Below, piece after piece: positions 44,004 to 55,407 of a stretch of 64,000 bases of DNA. The notes under the pieces are model-generated. The model was not told the origin of the DNA. It made no database searches and saw nothing but the letters and a program-made list of their open reading frames with translations. Origin of the DNA: Ochromonas danica (lineage: Eukaryota; Sar; Chrysophyceae; Chromulinales; Chromulinaceae). Both the position numbers and the translations under genes were made by a program. Location: positions 44,393-108,392 of the forward strand of contig VKHL01000096.1 in NCBI GenBank assembly GCA_015146655.1. Direction: 5' to 3'. Position 1 is the first letter of the stretch; every line of letters begins with the position of its first letter.

Positions 44004-47000
44004 ATGCCCGCCCATGCCTTTCTGTCAGGCCTGTCGCTATCTTTATTGCTGCTGCTCGTTGGTGCAGTCCAGAACAGCGGCAGGCTGCCCTTCTATGACT
44101 ACGAGCCCTTGAGGTACACTCTGCCTCCGTCCAATGACAGCGTGTCCTCTCTGCTCAAGTCGTTCTACAACTTCTCCTCCTTCAGCTGCCATGCAGCACT
44201 GCCGCGCAACTCCCCCGCCGCCCTGTGCTCTGACCTGGTCACCTACTCCTTCCTCCTCCCCGCAGGCGTGACCTTGCAGGGCTTGGAAGAGATCGGTCGC
44301 GCATGGAGTGCTCTCTATCCGCTCTTCCTGCCTGCCACTTGCTTGTCTTCTCTCAAGCGCGTGGTCTGCTCCTCCGTCTACCTGCCCTGTACCTCTCTGG
44401 AAGGGCAGAGCGAATCTCTGCCTTTTGTGCGTCCCTGCATTTCCCTCTGCGCCTCGTTGACATCGTCTTGTGAGGGACAACTCGAAGCGCTGGGCCTCTC
44501 CCTGCCTTGTGATCTGACAGCATCAGTTGGGCAGTGGCCCATCTATGACAACCTCTCCCTGCCCTGGAGCAATCGCATGCAGGAAGCTGAACAAGAGAAG
44601 GAGTTTAGCGGATATTGCAACGACCTTCCAGCTGGTCAGAATCGATTGTTGGTGGGCACAGCCTCTGAACGCTATGAAGGCAGTGTCTGTGGCCCTGTGG
44701 TGGAGGAAACCTTTCTCCCGCCTCCATCGCAAGTTGACCCTTCTTTGTCTCCGTGGCAGCCGCCAGGCAGAGTACAAGCTGTGCTAGAGGGTCGACTAGC
44801 TGATGCTCTGTCTGAGTTACCGCGAGCTTTCTCTCCCTCCTGCCTCTCCTCGCTGACCAGCCTGTACTGCCTCTCGACCTTTCCCATCCCTCTGCAGGCT
44901 GGCGTGTGGAAGATGTCTTTGACTTACCCTTCCCTGCCCCATCGCTCTCTTTGCCTGGAAGTGGTGGCCAGCTGCGGGGGATCGCTATTCGCTCTGCACC
45001 CTGATTGGGCCCTTAATTGCAATTCCACAACCTCAGCTGCTTTACATGTGTTTCCTGACCAAGAAGAAGTTGCTGTGGTGCTACAGAAGGAGGAAGAGGA
45101 GATTGTTATCGCGAGTCAGCCCTATCAGCTATCTAACCATTCTTCAACACTGTTCACCATAAGTCCACAGTGTCCTGAAGGATATGCAGTTGTTGATGCA
45201 ACAGAAGGAAGAACGGATGCGGCAGAGGCGACAGTTTGTGCTCCTGCCTGTCCGAGTTTGCCCTACACTTCATCAGAATTGAATGCGATCTATCGGGTCG
45301 ATGGGGCGAGCGCGTTGGTAGCATTTCTCTTCTTCGCTCTTCAAATTGTAAATATAGCCATGATGAAAGTGTCCAAGTTCAATCCATTCCTCCTCTTGGC
45401 GATGGTCACGGTGGTATTAGGAGAGGTGTTGCAGGCGGTGCAGATTATGGCAGTGCTGCTCTTCCACCGACCTGCTCCATATTGCCGCTCGGAGACAGAC
45501 TATGTGAGCAAGAGCGATCTGTTGAGCGGAAGGGGGCATCCATTGGACGTGCTTTGCGTCTTAACTGCTCTCTGCTCTCTTTGGCTGCGAATATTTTCTT
45601 GGGCGGTTGGACTCATCCTTTGCACTGACCTCTGGCTTTGTGTGACCTGGAGGATGAAGAAAGGAACCACCATGCGATTGATACAGTCCATCCACTACTC
45701 CATTTGCTCTTCTGCTTTCCTCGCGCTAGCTCTGGTAGTAACCTTGTCTCGCGAAGGGGATGTGGACACCTCGGGTCTATACTGTCGCTGGACTATCGGT
45801 AGCAGCGAGGAACATTATCTCATCGTCACTTTATGCGGCACCTTTGCCTACTCCTGCACGATCGTGTTTGTCGTTCATTCTCTTCTAATTTGTGTTCACA
45901 CCTCTTTTCGTGCCACAATCCCCGGGCAGTCCATGTTGGGGCAACTTTGGCGCTCATATTCGAATATCTTTCGCTTCCTGTTGCTCGTGGTCGTGCTCTA
46001 TTCTATCCCTCTGTTTTACTACGACATGTACGTCTATTTTATAGCAGCGCAGGAGCAGGAGAAAGAAGGAGAGGTCTGGCAGGACTGTATCTTCCGGTAT
46101 TTTGTCAACGAGGAGGATGCAGACTATCGAGAACAGTGTGGCAGCGAGTCTGAGGAGGTACTCTCTCCAGAGGCAGTCTGTTGGCCTCATTTTGTTCACA
46201 CAATGTTGGCAAGTCTTGTCATCTGGATGTTCACTCTCAACAAGGAGGTGCGCGCCAATTGGATAAACTTGTCTCTGACTGCCTTGGGGGTGAGAGGCGC
46301 TTTCACGAAATACCAGGTCGACTCTACTGAAATGGCCGCCGCCATTTATCGCAAGCGCGAAGATGGTTCAATGGATTGCGGTGGCGTTAGCAACCTTTTG
46401 TTTTGCTGCTCTTGTGGCTACTACCCGATTAATCGAGGAGGAGAGGACAGTGCCAATGCTATACAAATCGCCTCGCAATTTCGACCCAGTCTCTTTCGGG
46501 CGAGCTTGCTGTCATCACTGGCAAGGAAGTTGGACTTCTTCTGCTTCCCTTCAGCATCTTCAACTGCGATTGACTCGTCGAAAGGGAACAAACACATCAA
46601 ACGCGTCCAGGTTTTGCCTGGCCAAGACTGTAGCAACGTTCATTCTGCGAGCTCGTCACCCTTCCGTCCCTTTGGAGCAAGTACAACACATAGACTCTTC
46701 TTCAGGGAGTCCTTCCAGATGACTATCGAAGACCCATTACCTGGGAGAGGCGACCTGTCGGAGGAAGGAACAGACCGCTACGAGCTCAAGAAGATTGCGC
46801 ATGTCTTTGTGGAGGAGGAGGGCAAGGAAGAAGAGGACAAGGACGAGGGAGGATGCAGGCGAGGGGAGGAAGGGCTGCCAGCAGGGTCGATGTCGAGGTC
46901 GAGGTCGAGGTCAACGCGTGACCTTCTAGTTCGTGCTCGTGCTCCCACTTCTTGCCTGCATGCCTTGGTGGAGGAGCTTTCCTCCATCCAAATGGATTGA
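44004..47000 (+). CDS. Frizzled/Smoothened-like seven-transmembrane receptor
   Basis: Single exon, 998 residues. A signal peptide (LSLSLLLLLVGAVQ) leads into a large Cys-rich ectodomain of ~410 residues. It contains two Cys-rich units reminiscent of Frizzled CRDs (VCSSVYLPCTSLEG, FVRPCISLCASLTSSCEGQL; then CLSSLTSLYCLSTFPIPL). Seven hydrophobic spans follow from about residue 433 to 750, beginning ALVAFLFFALQIVNIAMM and ending MLASLVIWMFTLNKEVRANW. A conserved-like Cys in the loop before TM3 and the extracellular loops match the Frizzled topology. The strict KTxxxW motif is not present; the equivalent place reads KEVRANW. The ~240-residue tail is Ser/Glu-rich with an Arg-Ser repeat. Frizzled-like receptors also exist in amoebae, so a ligand cannot be inferred. 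Seven-pass and CRD-like calls good; family assignment moderate. Confidence 0.72.
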   Translation: MPAHAFLSGLSLSLLLLLVGAVQNSGRLPFYDYEPLRYTLPPSNDSVSSLLKSFYNFSSFSCHAALPRNSPAALCSDLVTYSFLLPAGVTLQGLEEIGRAWSALYPLFLPATCLSSLKRVVCSSVYLPCTSLEGQSESLPFVRPCISLCASLTSSCEGQLEALGLSLPCDLTASVGQWPIYDNLSLPWSNRMQEAEQEKEFSGYCNDLPAGQNRLLVGTASERYEGSVCGPVVEETFLPPPSQVDPSLSPWQPPGRVQAVLEGRLADALSELPRAFSPSCLSSLTSLYCLSTFPIPLQAGVWKMSLTYPSLPHRSLCLEVVASCGGSLFALHPDWALNCNSTTSAALHVFPDQEEVAVVLQKEEEEIVIASQPYQLSNHSSTLFTISPQCPEGYAVVDATEGRTDAAEATVCAPACPSLPYTSSELNAIYRVDGASALVAFLFFALQIVNIAMMKVSKFNPFLLLAMVTVVLGEVLQAVQIMAVLLFHRPAPYCRSETDYVSKSDLLSGRGHPLDVLCVLTALCSLWLRIFSWAVGLILCTDLWLCVTWRMKKGTTMRLIQSIHYSICSSAFLALALVVTLSREGDVDTSGLYCRWTIGSSEEHYLIVTLCGTFAYSCTIVFVVHSLLICVHTSFRATIPGQSMLGQLWRSYSNIFRFLLLVVVLYSIPLFYYDMYVYFIAAQEQEKEGEVWQDCIFRYFVNEEDADYREQCGSESEEVLSPEAVCWPHFVHTMLASLVIWMFTLNKEVRANWINLSLTALGVRGAFTKYQVDSTEMAAAIYRKREDGSMDCGGVSNLLFCCSCGYYPINRGGEDSANAIQIASQFRPSLFRASLLSSLARKLDFFCFPSASSTAIDSSKGNKHIKRVQVLPGQDCSNVHSASSSPFRPFGASTTHRLFFRESFQMTIEDPLPGRGDLSEEGTDRYELKKIAHVFVEEEGKEEEDKDEGGCRRGEEGLPAGSMSRSRSRSTRDLLVRARAPTSCLHALVEELSSIQMD

Positions 47001-48629: not shown

Positions 48630-51600
48630 CTAGTCTACCGTGTGGTAGCAATCTTGCAACAGAGTCCACTCGCTCAGTAGCGGTCGACGCAGTGCTTCTT
48701 GATTCCATTTCGTGCGAAACACCTCAAAGGCTTCAATGTGCTCTTGCAGGCGCTCTATCACATCACCAGATTTGATATCATACGCTTTCACCGCTTCCGT
48801 GCTCGAGCGAGTCCATATCACTTCCATCCAAAGTCTTCGTTGACGGCTCACCATGACTGGACCACCATCGCTGCTTCTATTGTTGTTAATTGTAGTGTAC
48901 AAGAAGGTGGCATCGTTGCTGTAGTCTCCTAGAGCCTCTCTCAATGAACGATAGTTGTCTCTGATCACCACGGCGGCTATAGTGCGCTCACCAAGAAAGG
49001 TCCCCGATCCACTACTCGCTCCTGGCGCAGTGATTGTCGCTCCACTGCTTGTAATCACTGAGGATACACTGCCTTGCGCCAGGCCATTGGGAGGAGCACC
49101 ATTATTCTGTTTCCGTGTCTTGCTCATCACAGAGCCTTTTGCCACATTATCACCTGCAATATCTCCATGCTTGGGCCGTAAGAAGAGGCGCTCAGTAAAC
49201 AAGACGGTGTCTCCAACACAGACATCACGAGTGCACTCGACATTAAAGTCACGACCAGCTGTTTTCGCAGTAAGTCCCAGATTCTCACTCCGGGCTGGAG
49301 TAGTTATCGAGAGAATATCTGAAGGAGCACTGGCAGTGCCCTGATAATTGACACAGAAAACTCTCACTTCATAGATCATTTCTGGGGTTAGAGTGGTGCA
49401 GGTGTAGAGATTATCGGGGCCATTGTAAACAATAAACCACCCCTCTTGCTGAGTATCCACACCTACAATAGGTCCCGGAATCTTCTTAACCGTCGCCACA
49501 CACCCTCGACATCGAAGCATGACCATAAACTTGAACGTTCCTTGTTCGGATGGATAATACTTCACTCTCACTGTTGAAGCAGAAAGGTCAACCAAAACAG
49601 GTGCACTTGGGGGTAGTGGGGCAGTCATTATCATAAGCGGGGCAGAAAGAATAGAATTCGATCTAGATCCCACATAGCGCAGACGAAAGTGATAATAAGA
49701 ATTGGGCTTCAGCCCTTTCACTTCACAACGCGTCCGGTTGTCGCGATACACTACGATCGGTACTCCTGCTGGACGAGGAAAAAAGTTCACCTGCGTTGAA
49801 CCATTCCCACTTGCAGACGCACTCGCAGCACTGGGCTGAGTCGGCGCGGAAAGACGAGTTCCAGGTGCTGAAGAAGGTCTCAATCGCGCGTTGACAGATC
49901 GCACTGAACCGTTACCACCAGCCACGCCTTCTTCTTCTCCACTGTCTTCGATAATGGCTGCCATACGGCTGGTCAGGGCTCTCGATCTTGAGACAGCTCT
50001 TGTGGTTGCAGTTGCTGTAGCACTGTTCGGTTTGGCATTCGCTTTGAGTGCAAGAGCCTGTGATGAAGAATACTTGAAAGGAAGCTCTTCAGAGCGTTTG
50101 AGGACATAGTTGACCTCGTCTCGTTTCCACCACCTGGCAAACTCCTCAAAAGATATCACACCATCGTGGTTAATGTCTAACACTTCAAAGGCATGACTTA
50201 AGCGCTCTTCTGTAATTGCCACGCCAAGATCTTTGAGCACGGCAACCAATTCTTGGCTGTCAATGTCGCCACTTCGATTAACGTCATACTTAGCAAACGC
50301 GGCTTCAATCGAAACTCCTTGATCACTAAGACTGTCGGAGTGCGTCCAATCACCTACCATTCTCTCAATGAACTTTTCTGTACGGGTGTTAGTGACAATA
50401 TTTCGAGCTTTCCAGCCAAGAGTGATACTGTTGCAAAGGATCTGTTTTGGAACAGGAGCTGGGGGAGCTGGTGTTTCCAAAAGAGTGTGGATTAGAACTG
50501 GGTCAGAAGGAGGACCAGGAAGATCGTCTGCATTTACTGCATAGACTCGGAAACGGTACGAGCGACCAGGCTCGAGATGATTGATGGTGCCTTGGCCCAG
50601 AGTGGTCCGAAGAACTTCAACATAACGGTCATCAAACTCATTCTGTAATTGTAAAGAAAAGAAACAGTGAGAAGCTTCCTCAGAATTTCGACTGAACTAT
50701 GCCTACCTCGCATTTTTCGACGACGTAGGTGATGTCCCCAGGCCGCACAGTTGCTCCACTGGAACTTCGGAGACTGTTCGTAGATCGACGCGTCGACGCC
50801 AGACTAGTTACGCTTCGGTTAGTGTCTGACGCAAGTGCACCAGGATTTGTCCATCCTGCGGAGAGGAAGAATGCCTCAAACTCCTCCCACGACAAGCCGC
50901 CATCATCATCTCCTTCTATCATATCGAATAAGACGCCATAGCCCAGTCGATCATCGACCACAACTCCTTTCGAAGAAGCAATCTTCTCAAGGAATTGACG
51001 TAACGGGGAAGCCCTCCCAGCTCGATCATCCAGAACAGCTGCGAGCTCTTCACGACTAACCTTTCCTGAGCTGTCCCTGTCTGCTGTTAGGAAGATTTGC
51101 TTGAGCTCGTCAATACGTTGAAAGAATCCTTCTGAGAACGTCCAGCGTAGAGTTACACTATCTGATGTCAATTTGATCGATTTGGGGGTTAACGGAGAGG
51201 TTGTTGCCGTTGTGAACTTCTTGTAGGTGTATTCGCTGGGTCCAAAGCCATTAAAGGCTCGAATACGGAACTTATAGGTCAGACCTGGTTGAAGGTTTTG
51301 CATGGTATATTGAAAGACAAACTGACTAACGAGCCCGGCCTCCACAGGATCACGAAATACTTCGGTATATACAGTGTCCCCAGCAGCTTTAGTTTTGTTG
51401 GTAATCGGTCCGCCAAATTCGATTGAGTAGAAAGAAACTAAATCTTGGGCTGATGCCGGGGCCCAAAATAGCGATATACTGGTGCTAGGATCATTATCCA
51501 AGTGATCCTAATCATAACATTAGATAGATCTCATGGTTAATAACAACTCTTTGAGCCAAACACAACAACTCTTACCTCCATGTCTTTCATCTCCCCACTA

Positions 51601-54600
51601 TCACGAGAGTTGTTATCCAATTTGAAACGATTAACACTTTTAGTGGCTATTTTCTTCTCGAATGAACACCAAAATCGCGGGGGTGATGGCGGGTTGCCAT
51701 TGGTAAGCATTCCTTTTAAAACTTCTTCTTCTCGTGCATCTCGAGTGATTGACATCATGTATTTGAGTCCAGCTTTACGATCTTTGAATGCCCATCGACT
51801 GAAAGGGCAAGAATCTAGAACAGCAACAACCGAAGAAGAGGTGGAATTATTGCGTTTTAGAGCTAGTTTTCCTCCTTTCGGCTTTTTGTCATTGTGATCG
51901 TCGTCTTCAGAATAACGATCTTCCTCGTAGTCGTCTTCGTACTGATTGTCATCACGATCCTTGGCACTCTTCTCATCCTCCTCTCTACTTGGCAGCAAGC
52001 CAAACTTGCGGAGCAACTCTTCGCGCTTTTTGCGTTCCACTAATTCAACACACATTCGCTGCTCTCCGTTGGCCAGCTTCTTAATCACTGTTGCTCCCGT
52101 GAACTGATCGTTGGTCTTATAGTCTTCTTCCTCTTCCTCAAAACCGTCATCATCGTATCGATTACCTCGAGCAGACTTTGGCAGAAGATTCGACGCAGAA
52201 TTGCGAGTTTTCATTCGTGATTCCTGCTCTTGTCTAAGGTAGCGCCTGGTTGGATTGGAAACAGTATATCCATTGGGCATTCCAGTAAGTCTGCACGTGG
52301 TCATCCAGCAACATCTTTGAGATAACAAGGCAGAGACTCCGCCCTTTCGATCACGTTTGGGGCCAATAAAATCGAGGAACTCTGTGAGGGTGACAACTCC
52401 ATCACCATTCGCATCAAAGGCATCAACCAAAGTGCGCATTTCATGTGGTGATAAGGACATTCCCAACTTCCGCAAGAGGATCTTAAGATGGTTCTTGGAG
52501 ATACTCACGTCCTGCATCCAACTTTCTTTCAACTCTTCGATTTCCTTGTCCACTTCTCTTTGCTCCTCAGGCTCCAAGCGGAAATACTTTTTATCATCTT
52601 TAATTTGCTGAATACGTCGCGAGAACACTGTTTTCTGTACGAAATCCAGGAAAGTCTCCTTGTAGTCCATTCCAGGCTTCAGGAGTTTCAAGAAAGTGTC
52701 TCTGACCTGAGAGAAGGTCGATGAATGCACATCACAAGAACGCGGTTCAAAGAAATCCCACAGCACCATACACACATTGGCCGACAAGACTTGATCTGCC
52801 CATTTAGACCAATCTGTAAATAGTGTGCGATCAACAGACTTGAGAGCTTTACCAACGTCAACAATGTGATTGAGCTTTTCCTTATGATCGGGATTCCGAA
52901 TATTGAGTGCTCCCTTAGTCGCAGAAGAGTCAGTGGTTGAAGTGACACTCCTGCGCATTCTGTTGTCTACATCTTCTGCTTCTTGGAGAGTAGGCTTCGG
53001 CAGCAACCCAAGACATTTTATTGCCTGGTCTTTCATTTCCTTCACTTGAACCCATTCCTCATACGCCTTGGCGCTCTCTTCCCGTATCTTTGCTTCCAAT
53101 TGTCTCTTCTCAGTTAAGGTTGAGTTTTCGCGCTTCTCGCGCTCGTATCGATCAGTATCCTCCTCGTCGAAGTTCTCCTTGTTGACATAACCCATTTTAA
53201 GCAACTAGAATACAAACATACCACGGATCAGGATGACCGGCAAACAGAATCGACCACAAATATGAGTATACCTGATTCCGACTGCGTTCCAAATCTCCTT
53301 CCATCCCAGTACGCCCCTTATTGGTAGCATGGACATATTTCAACCCACTACCAACCATAAGCTCAACCGTTGTTCGAGGTCCAGATTTCTCTGCTCGGAT
53401 GCCTGCAAGCTCCTTCCCATAAGACATGGGTAAAGGGGTTGGATGAGAGATGTCCGCTGGCATGCGGATACGTAAGCTGATCCCATCAATCACAATTAGC
53501 TGCGAGAACATTCAAAAGGTAAATGATGTATTTAAGCCAACCTGTCCTTTTTCTTCAAAAACTGCTCATGAGACTTCTTGGCGTCGTGCAATTTCTCCAA
53601 AGCAGCTTCGTTCTCTTCTGCAATCTTCTTGTCCTCGTCCTCTTCTATCCACGTTCTCAAGCGTTTCAACGAGAGGTCATGAAGGCACATGTTCTCCAAG
53701 GAGCGGGCCACTTTGTCGTAATTAACTCCACTGCTCGAGCCAGAGGCAGCTGCCGCGGCCGCTTTACTTTTGCCTTCCTTTTCACTGCGCTCTTGACGTT
53801 GTACTTTCACACCCTTCGCTACGTATTCCACCACTGCATTATCCAACTCCTCTTTTGCCTTGTACCAAAGCTTGCGAAGCTCGCGCATGAAGATTGCATT
53901 TTGTGCCTTTTGATCATTTGTCAGAGACTTGGGCTTCTCGTTGGGTTTGGGCACGGCAGGGAAAAAGTACTTGAGAGACGGCAGAACAGACTTGTCGCGG
54001 TTAGCGCGCTCTAATTCTTCACTAGGAGCTCCTGACGAGGCAATCATATCCGCCTCTGAAAACAGGAACTCCTTCACGGCGTCAGACAAAGTGGCGACAT
54101 CTGCACGCGAGAGATGCAACATGTTAAAGGTGTAGTACTCCATGGCCCACTTCATCCAAGCACTCTTGAGAGTCTTCTTGGAGGAAGCCGATTCAATCTG
54201 AGAGCAGATCCATGCAATAGTTGGCACACTCAGAGAAAGCACAAAGCACACTCAGAGCAGGGGAGCTGCCCCTCACCTTCTTCCTGGACAACACGCCGGT
54301 AGAGGCTTTGTTTCCTTTTCCTTCTTCAGTGGCCTGTTGGTTCGAAACGAAAGCATCTTCATCAGCTCCCAACAGACGGTCAACAGCACAGAGAGCAACT
54401 CCCACTTGCACCAAGGAGTCTTCCGCCATAGCTCGCTCAGAGCTCAGCTTTGAGAGATACTGGGGCAGAGCAAGAGAAGAGACCTGTCGTCAGCAAAAAG
54501 AGTCGAGCGGCGCATTCCCGGCACTCACCTCGAAGGCCTTCTCCTTGATGGCCTTGTTCTGCAGCCATTTTTTGAATTTCGCGTCTCTCTCTCTCGCGAG

Positions 54601-54636
54601 GGGATCATCCGCTGCCTGCGCACTCTTCGAGGCCAT
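48630..54636 (-). CDS. Giant EF-hand / fibronectin type III multidomain protein
   Basis: Seven exons (54636-54529, 54459-54277, 54197-53542, 53476-53272, 53204-51576, 51507-50707, 50642-48630) join in phase to about 1,864 residues; introns 64-79 nt. The N-terminal ~900 residues are mostly helical and charged (REREAKFKKWLQNKAIKEKA) with one EF-hand near residue 650 (DAFDANGDGVVTLTEF). From ~928 there is a typical FN3 domain (STSISLFWAPASAQ ... YKFRIRAFNGFGPSEYTY). A second FN3 starts (SIKLTSDSVTLRW) but is interrupted by an EF-hand pair (TADRDSSGKVSREEL, EGDDDGGLSWEEF) before finishing (DITYVVEKCE ... YRFRVYAVNADDLPGPP). A third FN3 is broken the same way (NSITLGWKA, then EF-hands KYDVNRSGDIDSQEL and DINHDGVISFEEF, then YYHFRLRYVGS). 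A fourth FN3 and a unique tail end the protein. No signal peptide, so probably cytosolic; a calcium-responsive axonemal or cytoskeletal scaffold is a guess. One exon border (53476/53542) was chosen by phase and intron length. Confidence 0.8.
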
Positions 54637-54854
54637 TCACTGCCCATACAACAAAACTGAAAGATACGAAATGTGAAGAAAGCAGTTGCGCTGTTGTAGT
54701 AATTTTCAGCTTCTTGGCAATGAAAAGAAAACAAAGAAGCCCACCAGCAAGGACAAGGAAAACCGGCGGAAGAAACTCGTTTTTCGCAGAAGTGAGTTTA
54801 TTGAACAACCTTGCACTGTGTGTGCAAGGTAGTTACAATGTACAAGGTAACACC

Positions 54855-55151
54855 CTGTTCGGCGCCTACGTAGTTTTTGACCAAAAGCGTAGTTTGAGTG
54901 GGGCGACCGTACTTCAACTACGAATACGGCGTAGAAACCGTTCGGTCGACTACGTAGAAAAAATCATCGAAAACTACGGATGGCCGTAGTTTTGGACTAC
55001 GCCTGATTAGGCGTAGTTTTGGGGAGGATCCGTAGTTTTGATGGGGGTGGCTGTTCGGTGACTGCGTGGTTTTTGGTGCAAAACTACGGCGTAGTTGAAG
55101 AAGAAACTACGGCGTAGTTTTTGGCCAAAAAACTACGTAGCCGCCGAACGG
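54855..55151. mobile_element. MITE-like inverted-repeat element built of CGTAGTTT/AAACTACG units
   Basis: About 297 bp in the spacer between two genes. The ends are terminal inverted repeats of ~26-28 bp with few mismatches: left CTGTTCGGCGCCTACGTAG, right end the reverse complement of CCGTTCGGCGGCTACGTAG. The interior is packed with both orientations of CGTAGTTT, giving many nested hairpins and the palindrome CTACGTAG near both ends. There is no ORF, so a transposase would have to act in trans. I could not define a clear target-site duplication. The remaining flanking spacer (54637-54854 and 55152-55407) shows no gene. Confidence 0.72.
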
Positions 55152-55407
55152 TATGTAAGAAACACGGACAAAGGCAGTCTATCTAATTTGTGTGCACACC
55201 AGGAGGTAGCCAATAGCCAACAACAAAGCATGCTTCCCTAAAGCAGCTTAGCGCTTACAAAGGGCAATCTACCTACTATTGTATACATCAATAAACTAAC
55301 CTACCCGCTGCCCTATCCCCCTCTCACTATCAATTCACTCGCACGGCATTACCCTAAACCAACACCAAAGCAAAGACCGTTACGTCATAGAAAACCTGTG
55401 GGTGATA

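Follow-up and report, generated by a model that had tools for sequence, protein, structure and literature searches.

EF-hand pairs predicted between strands B and C of two fibronectin type III domains in an Ochromonas danica protein

Can a calcium-binding module be carried inside a fibronectin type III (FN3) domain rather than beside it, and what would it do there? The question is raised by a gene on the minus strand (54636 to 48630) of a 64,000-nucleotide stretch of Ochromonas danica DNA (assembly GCA_015146655.1, contig VKHL01000096.1, positions 44,393 to 108,392), referred to here as the window and numbered from its first letter. A preliminary description of the window proposed that two FN3 domains of the encoded protein each start normally, give way to an EF-hand pair after strand B and only then resume. 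Alignments and structural models indicate that this is very probably so, with the second and third of four tandem FN3 domains each holding a nested EF-hand pair in the connection between strands B and C.

48630–54636, minus strand: the whole gene, 7 exons encoding 1864 residues (splice model; identity to EukProt P0001)

Six introns of 64–79 bp, all GT-AG, join open frames in three phases, and the product is identical letter for letter to the EukProt entry P0001 (gene7761-8572_t). From N- to C-terminus it comprises a charged half with an EF-hand pair, FN3-A (residues 936–1030), FN3-B (1036–1250), FN3-C (1257–1540), FN3-D (1541–1645) and a C-terminal region (1655–1864). Pfam finds EF-hand_7 in three stretches of P0001 (7.3e-29) and fn3 in four (3.3e-20; 72.5 bits against a cut-off of 25), and the open frame at 48633–50696 on its own matches EF-hand_1 at 8.7e-14 and fn3 at 2.8e-13. 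Given these E-values, domains of both kinds are present far beyond chance. FN3-B opens with strands A and B (KSIKLTSDSVTLRW); next come the first nested EF pair (EF-B) and a low-complexity linker, then strand C (DITYVVEKCE) and, after intron 6, the other strands:

51139–51183, minus strand: strands A and B of FN3-B, residues 1036–1050 (alignment; homolog model)
50848–51123, minus strand: EF-hand pair in FN3-B, residues 1056–1147, loops 1070–1081 and 1125–1136 (Pfam; ligand conservation; homolog model)
50740–50847, minus strand: low-complexity linker of variable length from the EF pair to strand C, residues 1148–1183 (length spread; low predicted local distance difference test score, pLDDT, in the homolog)
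50707–50739, minus strand: strand C of FN3-B, residues 1184–1194 (alignment; homolog strand 427–434)
50643–50706, minus strand: intron 6, within FN3-B between strand C and the later strands (splice model)
50475–50642, minus strand: rest of FN3-B to strand G, residues 1195–1250 (partial Pfam fn3 match, stretch 36–66 of the open segment)

FN3-C runs from strands A and B (NSITLGW) through a helix, the second EF pair (EF-C), strand C (VNYVLKR) and a disordered linker of about 100 residues to the other strands:

50403–50456, minus strand: strands A and B of FN3-C, residues 1257–1274 (model strands 62–68 and 72–76)
50118–50381, minus strand: preceding helix and EF-hand pair in FN3-C, residues 1282–1369, loops 1314–1325 and 1350–1361 (model helices 89–173; Pfam EF-hand_7 1306–1366; ligands)
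50085–50117, minus strand: strand C of FN3-C, residues 1370–1380, straight after the last EF helix (model strand 178–183; fixed spacing in 32 of 32)
49776–50072, minus strand: disordered variable linker within FN3-C, residues 1385–1483 (pLDDT below 50 at model 190–266 and 271–292; length spread)
49605–49775, minus strand: strands C' to G of FN3-C, residues 1484–1540 (model strands 296–339)

All strings on which the nesting was first proposed are found in the predicted protein: SIKLTSDSVTLRW at residues 1037–1049, NSITLGWKA at 1265–1273, YRFRVYAV at 1223–1230 and YYHFRLRY at 1510–1517. In models and alignments the EF-hand pairs follow the strand-B tryptophan and lie between strands B and C of an otherwise complete FN3 domain. 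AlphaFold places FN3 strands on both sides of the EF pair in FN3-C of the window protein and in both FN3-B and FN3-C of the homolog P0030. The window model, which covers FN3-C and FN3-D, has the FN3 strand order A B C C' E F G. In the homolog model the strands of FN3-A, C and D are seen; no C' strand is listed for FN3-B, and the list of strands of at least 3 residues lacks strand A of FN3-C. Models and structural alignments together give the seven-strand FN3 sandwich, the Pfam fn3 profile match likewise assigns the domains to FN3, and the host fold resumes after its guest, for FN3-B as judged by the homolog model and alignment only.

The family extends beyond O. danica. Three protein searches yielded 33 homologs, which were aligned with P0001 to give 34 sequences; each search scored 7983–7991 candidates sharing most words, and the homolog count is a lower bound. 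Nine rows (P0022–P0026 and P0032–P0035), matching over 8–41% of the query and unaligned, were dropped before counting; eight of these have fn3 among their Pfam domains and P0025 has EF hands. P0036 and P0041, which end early, before the second EF site, were aligned and excluded from spacing counts. Of the aligned sequences, 32 reach across both sites, one of them transcript-derived, and every one has both EF pairs between strands B and C. The strand-B tryptophan, by which FN3 membership was also judged, is invariant in the 34 sequences at W1049 and kept in at least 90% at W1271; P0043, the most distant member of its search, has lost that of FN3-C.

Some points weigh against nesting. Strand pairing was taken from strand order and structural alignments, the predicted template modelling scores are moderate (0.55 and 0.45), and the 32 sequences are not independent, several being close relatives. 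FN3-B of the window itself lies outside the AlphaFold model because intron 6 splits it, and its nesting rests on alignment and on the model of P0030, which is 29% identical to P0001; the fn3 stretch listed there spans only positions 51–80 of the 84 in the profile. The preliminary description had named as its own counter-reading that each EF pair stands as a domain by itself between intact FN3 units, or that the gene is split there. Exons from different genes would then have been read as one, as the spread of the gene over several frames might suggest. This is contradicted on each count: FN3 templates align across both inserts, the splice model reproduces the database protein P0001, and P0040, labelled as a 'type:complete' transcript open reading frame (ORF) from MMETSP, a transcriptome project, carries both inserts in one open frame. 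We regard the counter-reading as highly improbable.

If the pairs are nested, how firmly are they joined to their hosts? The coupling is one-sided, and mirrored between the two domains. The strand-B tryptophan position and the first EF-B loop are 21 residues apart in 31 of the 32 sequences and 23 apart in the other, and the exit from EF-B to strand C spans anything from 32 to 62 residues. For EF-C it is the entry that varies, from 41 to 122 residues (43 in 16 sequences), and the exit to the strand-C tyrosine position that is fixed, at 12 residues in 32 of 32. The two EF-C loops are always 25 residues apart, those of EF-B 34 to 78 (42 in 17 sequences). Loose segments with pLDDT below 50 include residues 83–110 of the window model and 388–422 and 520–606 of the homolog model. 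Each pair thus has one fixed and one variable spacing: strand B braces EF-B, strand C braces EF-C, and the opposite ends are loose.

Whether this arrangement arose once or twice was addressed by profile comparison. The preliminary description had favoured one insertion followed by domain duplication, that is, an EF-hand pair entering an ancestral FN3 domain and the composite then duplicating in tandem, with the copies diverging. The identical site in both domains, after the strand-B tryptophan and before strand C, and the similar strand-C motifs YVVEKCE and YVLKRSE speak for such a history. EF-B and EF-C nevertheless proved not to be each other's closest relatives. Profiles of each, built from 15 sequences, were run against 23 EF pairs, namely three of this gene and 20 from elsewhere in the genome, the latter chosen from the top of 137 genome EF-hand rows with some duplicates and same-gene rows left out. 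The EF-C profile put EF-B last of the 23 at 24.1 bits, the 20 ordinary pairs scoring 28.4 to 66.1; the EF-B profile put EF-C tenth of 23, itself included, at 26.4 bits, with the best ordinary pair at 41.4. Because the longer inter-loop segment of EF-B lowers its pair score, the comparison was rerun hand by hand, where that length plays no part, each ranking taking in 22 hands of like position (20 ordinary ones, the query's own and its partner). The partner ranked 14 for B1, 5 for B2, 12 for C1 and 21 for C2, and was never nearest. Entry, exit and inter-loop spacings are also unlike between the two pairs.

Comparison of the E–G segments of the hosts is mixed and weak. The profile of FN3-B favours A (25.2) and D (13.0) above C (11.7), contrary to a single insertion, whereas that of FN3-C ranks B first of the other three at 9.0 bits, with D at 6.0 and A at 5.5; this weak preference leans towards a B–C duplication and counts against independent origins. 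The hhalign match of EF-B to EF-C (probability 97.5) also fits a single event, although it indicates shared EF-hand ancestry only. On balance a single insertion seems unlikely, and the two pairs probably derive from separate insertions at one permissive site. Direct duplication of a composite domain fits less well than separate insertions or an ancient duplication followed by replacement, a conclusion of moderate confidence because short EF-hand sequences contain little phylogenetic signal.

By eye, no FN3-like frame surrounds the EF pair in the two best ordinary EF-C matches (L029 and L030) or in two further genome matches, L031 and L032. The NCBIfam model NF041410 hits the EF-C region weakly (42.4 bits, cut-off 120), which we ascribe to general likeness among EF hands. 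With 25 of 39 candidates scored, no second copy of the gene was found in the 31.2-Mb assembly, and the five other genome matches of P0001 (1.4e-5 to 1.7e-4) all fall in its EF-C part. L030, on C282 of the same genome, lies in a 644-residue open frame in which EF-hand pairs are followed by repeats that look ankyrin-type by eye; a WW motif closes its EF pair, as it does EF-C.

Do the inserts bind calcium? Their loops have 12 residues, with ligands at positions 1, 3, 5, 9 and 12 and glycine at position 6, except at position 1 of EF-B loop 2. Across the 26 sequences of A2, positions 1 and 12 are kept in 26 and 26 at EF-B1, 26 and 26 at EF-C1, and 25 and 25 at EF-C2; at EF-B2 position 12 is kept in 26, and position 1 is glutamate in 21 and aspartate in 5. 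Judged by these ligands, at least EF-C is highly likely to bind calcium. The glutamate of EF-B loop 2 tells against the same conclusion for EF-B, which may bind one of its ions weakly. In this loop (residues 1125–1136; 50881–50916, minus strand) the aspartate occurs in the five sequences of the P0021/P0027–P0030 group, and the split hints at a difference in calcium affinity between the two branches of the family.

Where would such binding take place? The adhesion-type setting first suggested for the protein finds no support. The start of P0001 is not hydrophobic, and by simple hydropathy, without a dedicated predictor, no signal peptide or membrane segment is evident: its highest 19-residue hydropathy is 1.24, against 0.88 to 1.73 in the homologs and 2.17 in a neighbouring Frizzled-like ORF used as control. 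Working against this view are the simplicity of the test and the hydrophobic starts of three homologs (P0016, P0019 and P0031), which may be unspliced leaders of metagenome gene calls because in these three the start lies far within the gene as P0001 defines it. A cytosolic location is most likely, and it argues against a role in adhesion. Radial-spoke families give four rows in the genome, three over cut-off, and do not tie the FN3/EF-hand protein to the flagellum; light-harvesting matches number 47 rows for PF00504. Together these two sets of matches suggest that the genome is probably that of a photosynthetic flagellate.

The position of the inserts suggests how calcium might act. In FN3 domains the B–C loop lies at the pole facing the preceding domain. 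EF-B would accordingly be placed where FN3-A meets FN3-B, and EF-C where FN3-B meets FN3-C; this placement comes from general FN3 geometry, which is a point against what is built on it. The four FN3 domains would form a rod. In EF-B the stiff side would be a helix whose distance from strand B is fixed; in EF-C it would be the last helix, which leads into strand C over a constant length. On binding calcium an EF pair would open, and its hydrophobic groove, now exposed, could either catch a partner or clamp the neighbouring FN3 domain and so change how stiff the rod is or at what angle it hinges. As only one end of each pair is stiff, the motion would swing the arm or clamp the neighbour, and the host fold need not be torn apart. 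We offer this junction mechanism tentatively, at somewhat less than an even chance. A calcium-dependent FN3 shape, as proposed in the preliminary description, is possible, but a switched arm or hinge would suit the one-sided coupling better.

The long floppy linker opposite each tether would equally suit a free arm, and the FN3 scaffold may simply display the EF pairs as calmodulin-like hooks, calcium recruiting a target peptide with FN3 shape unchanged. Both EF-C loops are canonical at 25-residue spacing, and calmodulin chains are hit by the family profile with a whole-sequence E-value of about 1e-21. Hooks would serve equally well appended between domains, however, and the fixed spacing to one strand in 31 of 32 and 32 of 32 sequences suggests mechanical coupling to the host; we hold hooks to be a plausible but lesser candidate. 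A further alternative is that permanently bound ions fold the inserts and switch nothing. The ligands at positions 1 and 12 are very strongly conserved, and the two best PDB matches of the family profile (among the best 60 of 647) are chains of titin, an intracellular rod rich in FN3. Yet regulatory EF pairs are equally conserved, and glutamate at position 1 of EF-B loop 2 makes a poor permanent site, so that purely structural calcium appears improbable.

Taken as a whole, the locus is best explained by a cytosolic FN3 rod with calcium-switched EF arms at FN3–FN3 junctions, an account we consider evenly poised. A bolder extension, which we think doubtful, would see a titin-like FN3 rod that separately acquired two EF-hand switches of mirrored polarity and so became an intracellular calcium-gated elastic element specific to algae and related protists. 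If true, calcium would set the hinge angles or the unfolding resistance of neighbouring FN3 domains.

How does the protein compare with known systems? Tandem FN3 proteins (fibronectin III 10–12, tenascin and the titin A-band) share its strand order and tandem layout, with structural alignment over nearly their full length. They align almost whole to the FN3 parts alone, whereas in this protein two of the four domains hold an EF pair of 90 residues in the B–C connection, together with long linkers. The EF pairs of calmodulin, centrin and troponin C are alike in loop ligands, helix pattern and sequence matches; unlike in those proteins, both ends of the pair here run into another domain, and the inter-loop segment of EF-B is longer (34–78 residues). 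In integrin beta a beta-I domain is inserted in the Ig-like hybrid domain, and its metal-regulated motion can swing the host. The likeness, which serves only as an analogy for the possible mechanism, is of a metal-regulated domain in a loop of a beta-sandwich; the integrin insert is of unrelated fold, extracellular and single. No description of EF hands inside FN3 domains was found in the open-access literature, searched at the level of titles and the starts of abstracts, with most subscription journals outside its reach. The parts are ordinary FN3 and EF-hand domains, and the arrangement is what is new. Few structural folds are used as widely as FN3, which is engineered through its B–C loop. 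A natural, conserved case with a calcium sensor twice in that loop, at fixed spacing to one strand, illustrates a possible way of linking a sandwich domain to calcium. It may serve as a starting point for FN3 tools that respond to calcium and as a testable model of how calcium could control cytoskeletal or signalling scaffolds in algae.

The remaining parts of the protein are as follows:

52356–52523, minus strand: N-terminal EF-hand pair, residues 612–667, loop 2 canonical (DANGDGVVTLTE), first hand degenerate (Pfam EF-hand_7 2.7e-8; ligand columns)
51199–51483, minus strand: FN3-A, residues 936–1030, uninterrupted (Pfam fn3 934–1020)
49290–49604, minus strand: FN3-D, residues 1541–1645, uninterrupted
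48633–49262, minus strand: conserved C-terminal region, residues 1655–1864 (conserved alignment columns)

In the N-terminal half Pfam placed no family other than EF hands, at E-values up to 10 for P0001 and with exons 3 and 5 searched alone; the best 60 of 269 PDB matches of exon 5 are EF-hand proteins. A suggested resemblance of the W-x-x-K repeats in this half to microtubule-associated coiled-coil proteins was supported by no tool. The 210-residue C-terminal region is conserved family-wide, and no Pfam family over cut-off has its best stretch there. P0021 has a weak DUF7699 match (23.2 bits against a cut-off of 27). Elsewhere in the genome, 15 of the 43 fn3 matches fall within one 16,150-residue open frame on contig C2 (about 283,380–329,681, minus strand), which would encode a giant FN3 protein without introns.

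About 210 bp upstream of the start codon of the FN3/EF-hand gene lies an element of about 300 bp (window 54850–55156), with 29-nucleotide terminal inverted repeats that are 86% complementary. All eight occurrences of the motif AAAACTACG in the window fall within it, against 0.17 expected, and related copies at four other places in the genome show 91–99% identity in the longer matches; it appears to be a repeat resembling a miniature inverted-repeat transposable element. On the plus strand, at 44004–47000, a 998-residue ORF with a Frizzled-type cysteine-rich domain (Pfam Fz, 3.3e-9) and strongly hydrophobic segments encodes a predicted Frizzled-like receptor in a photosynthetic protist.
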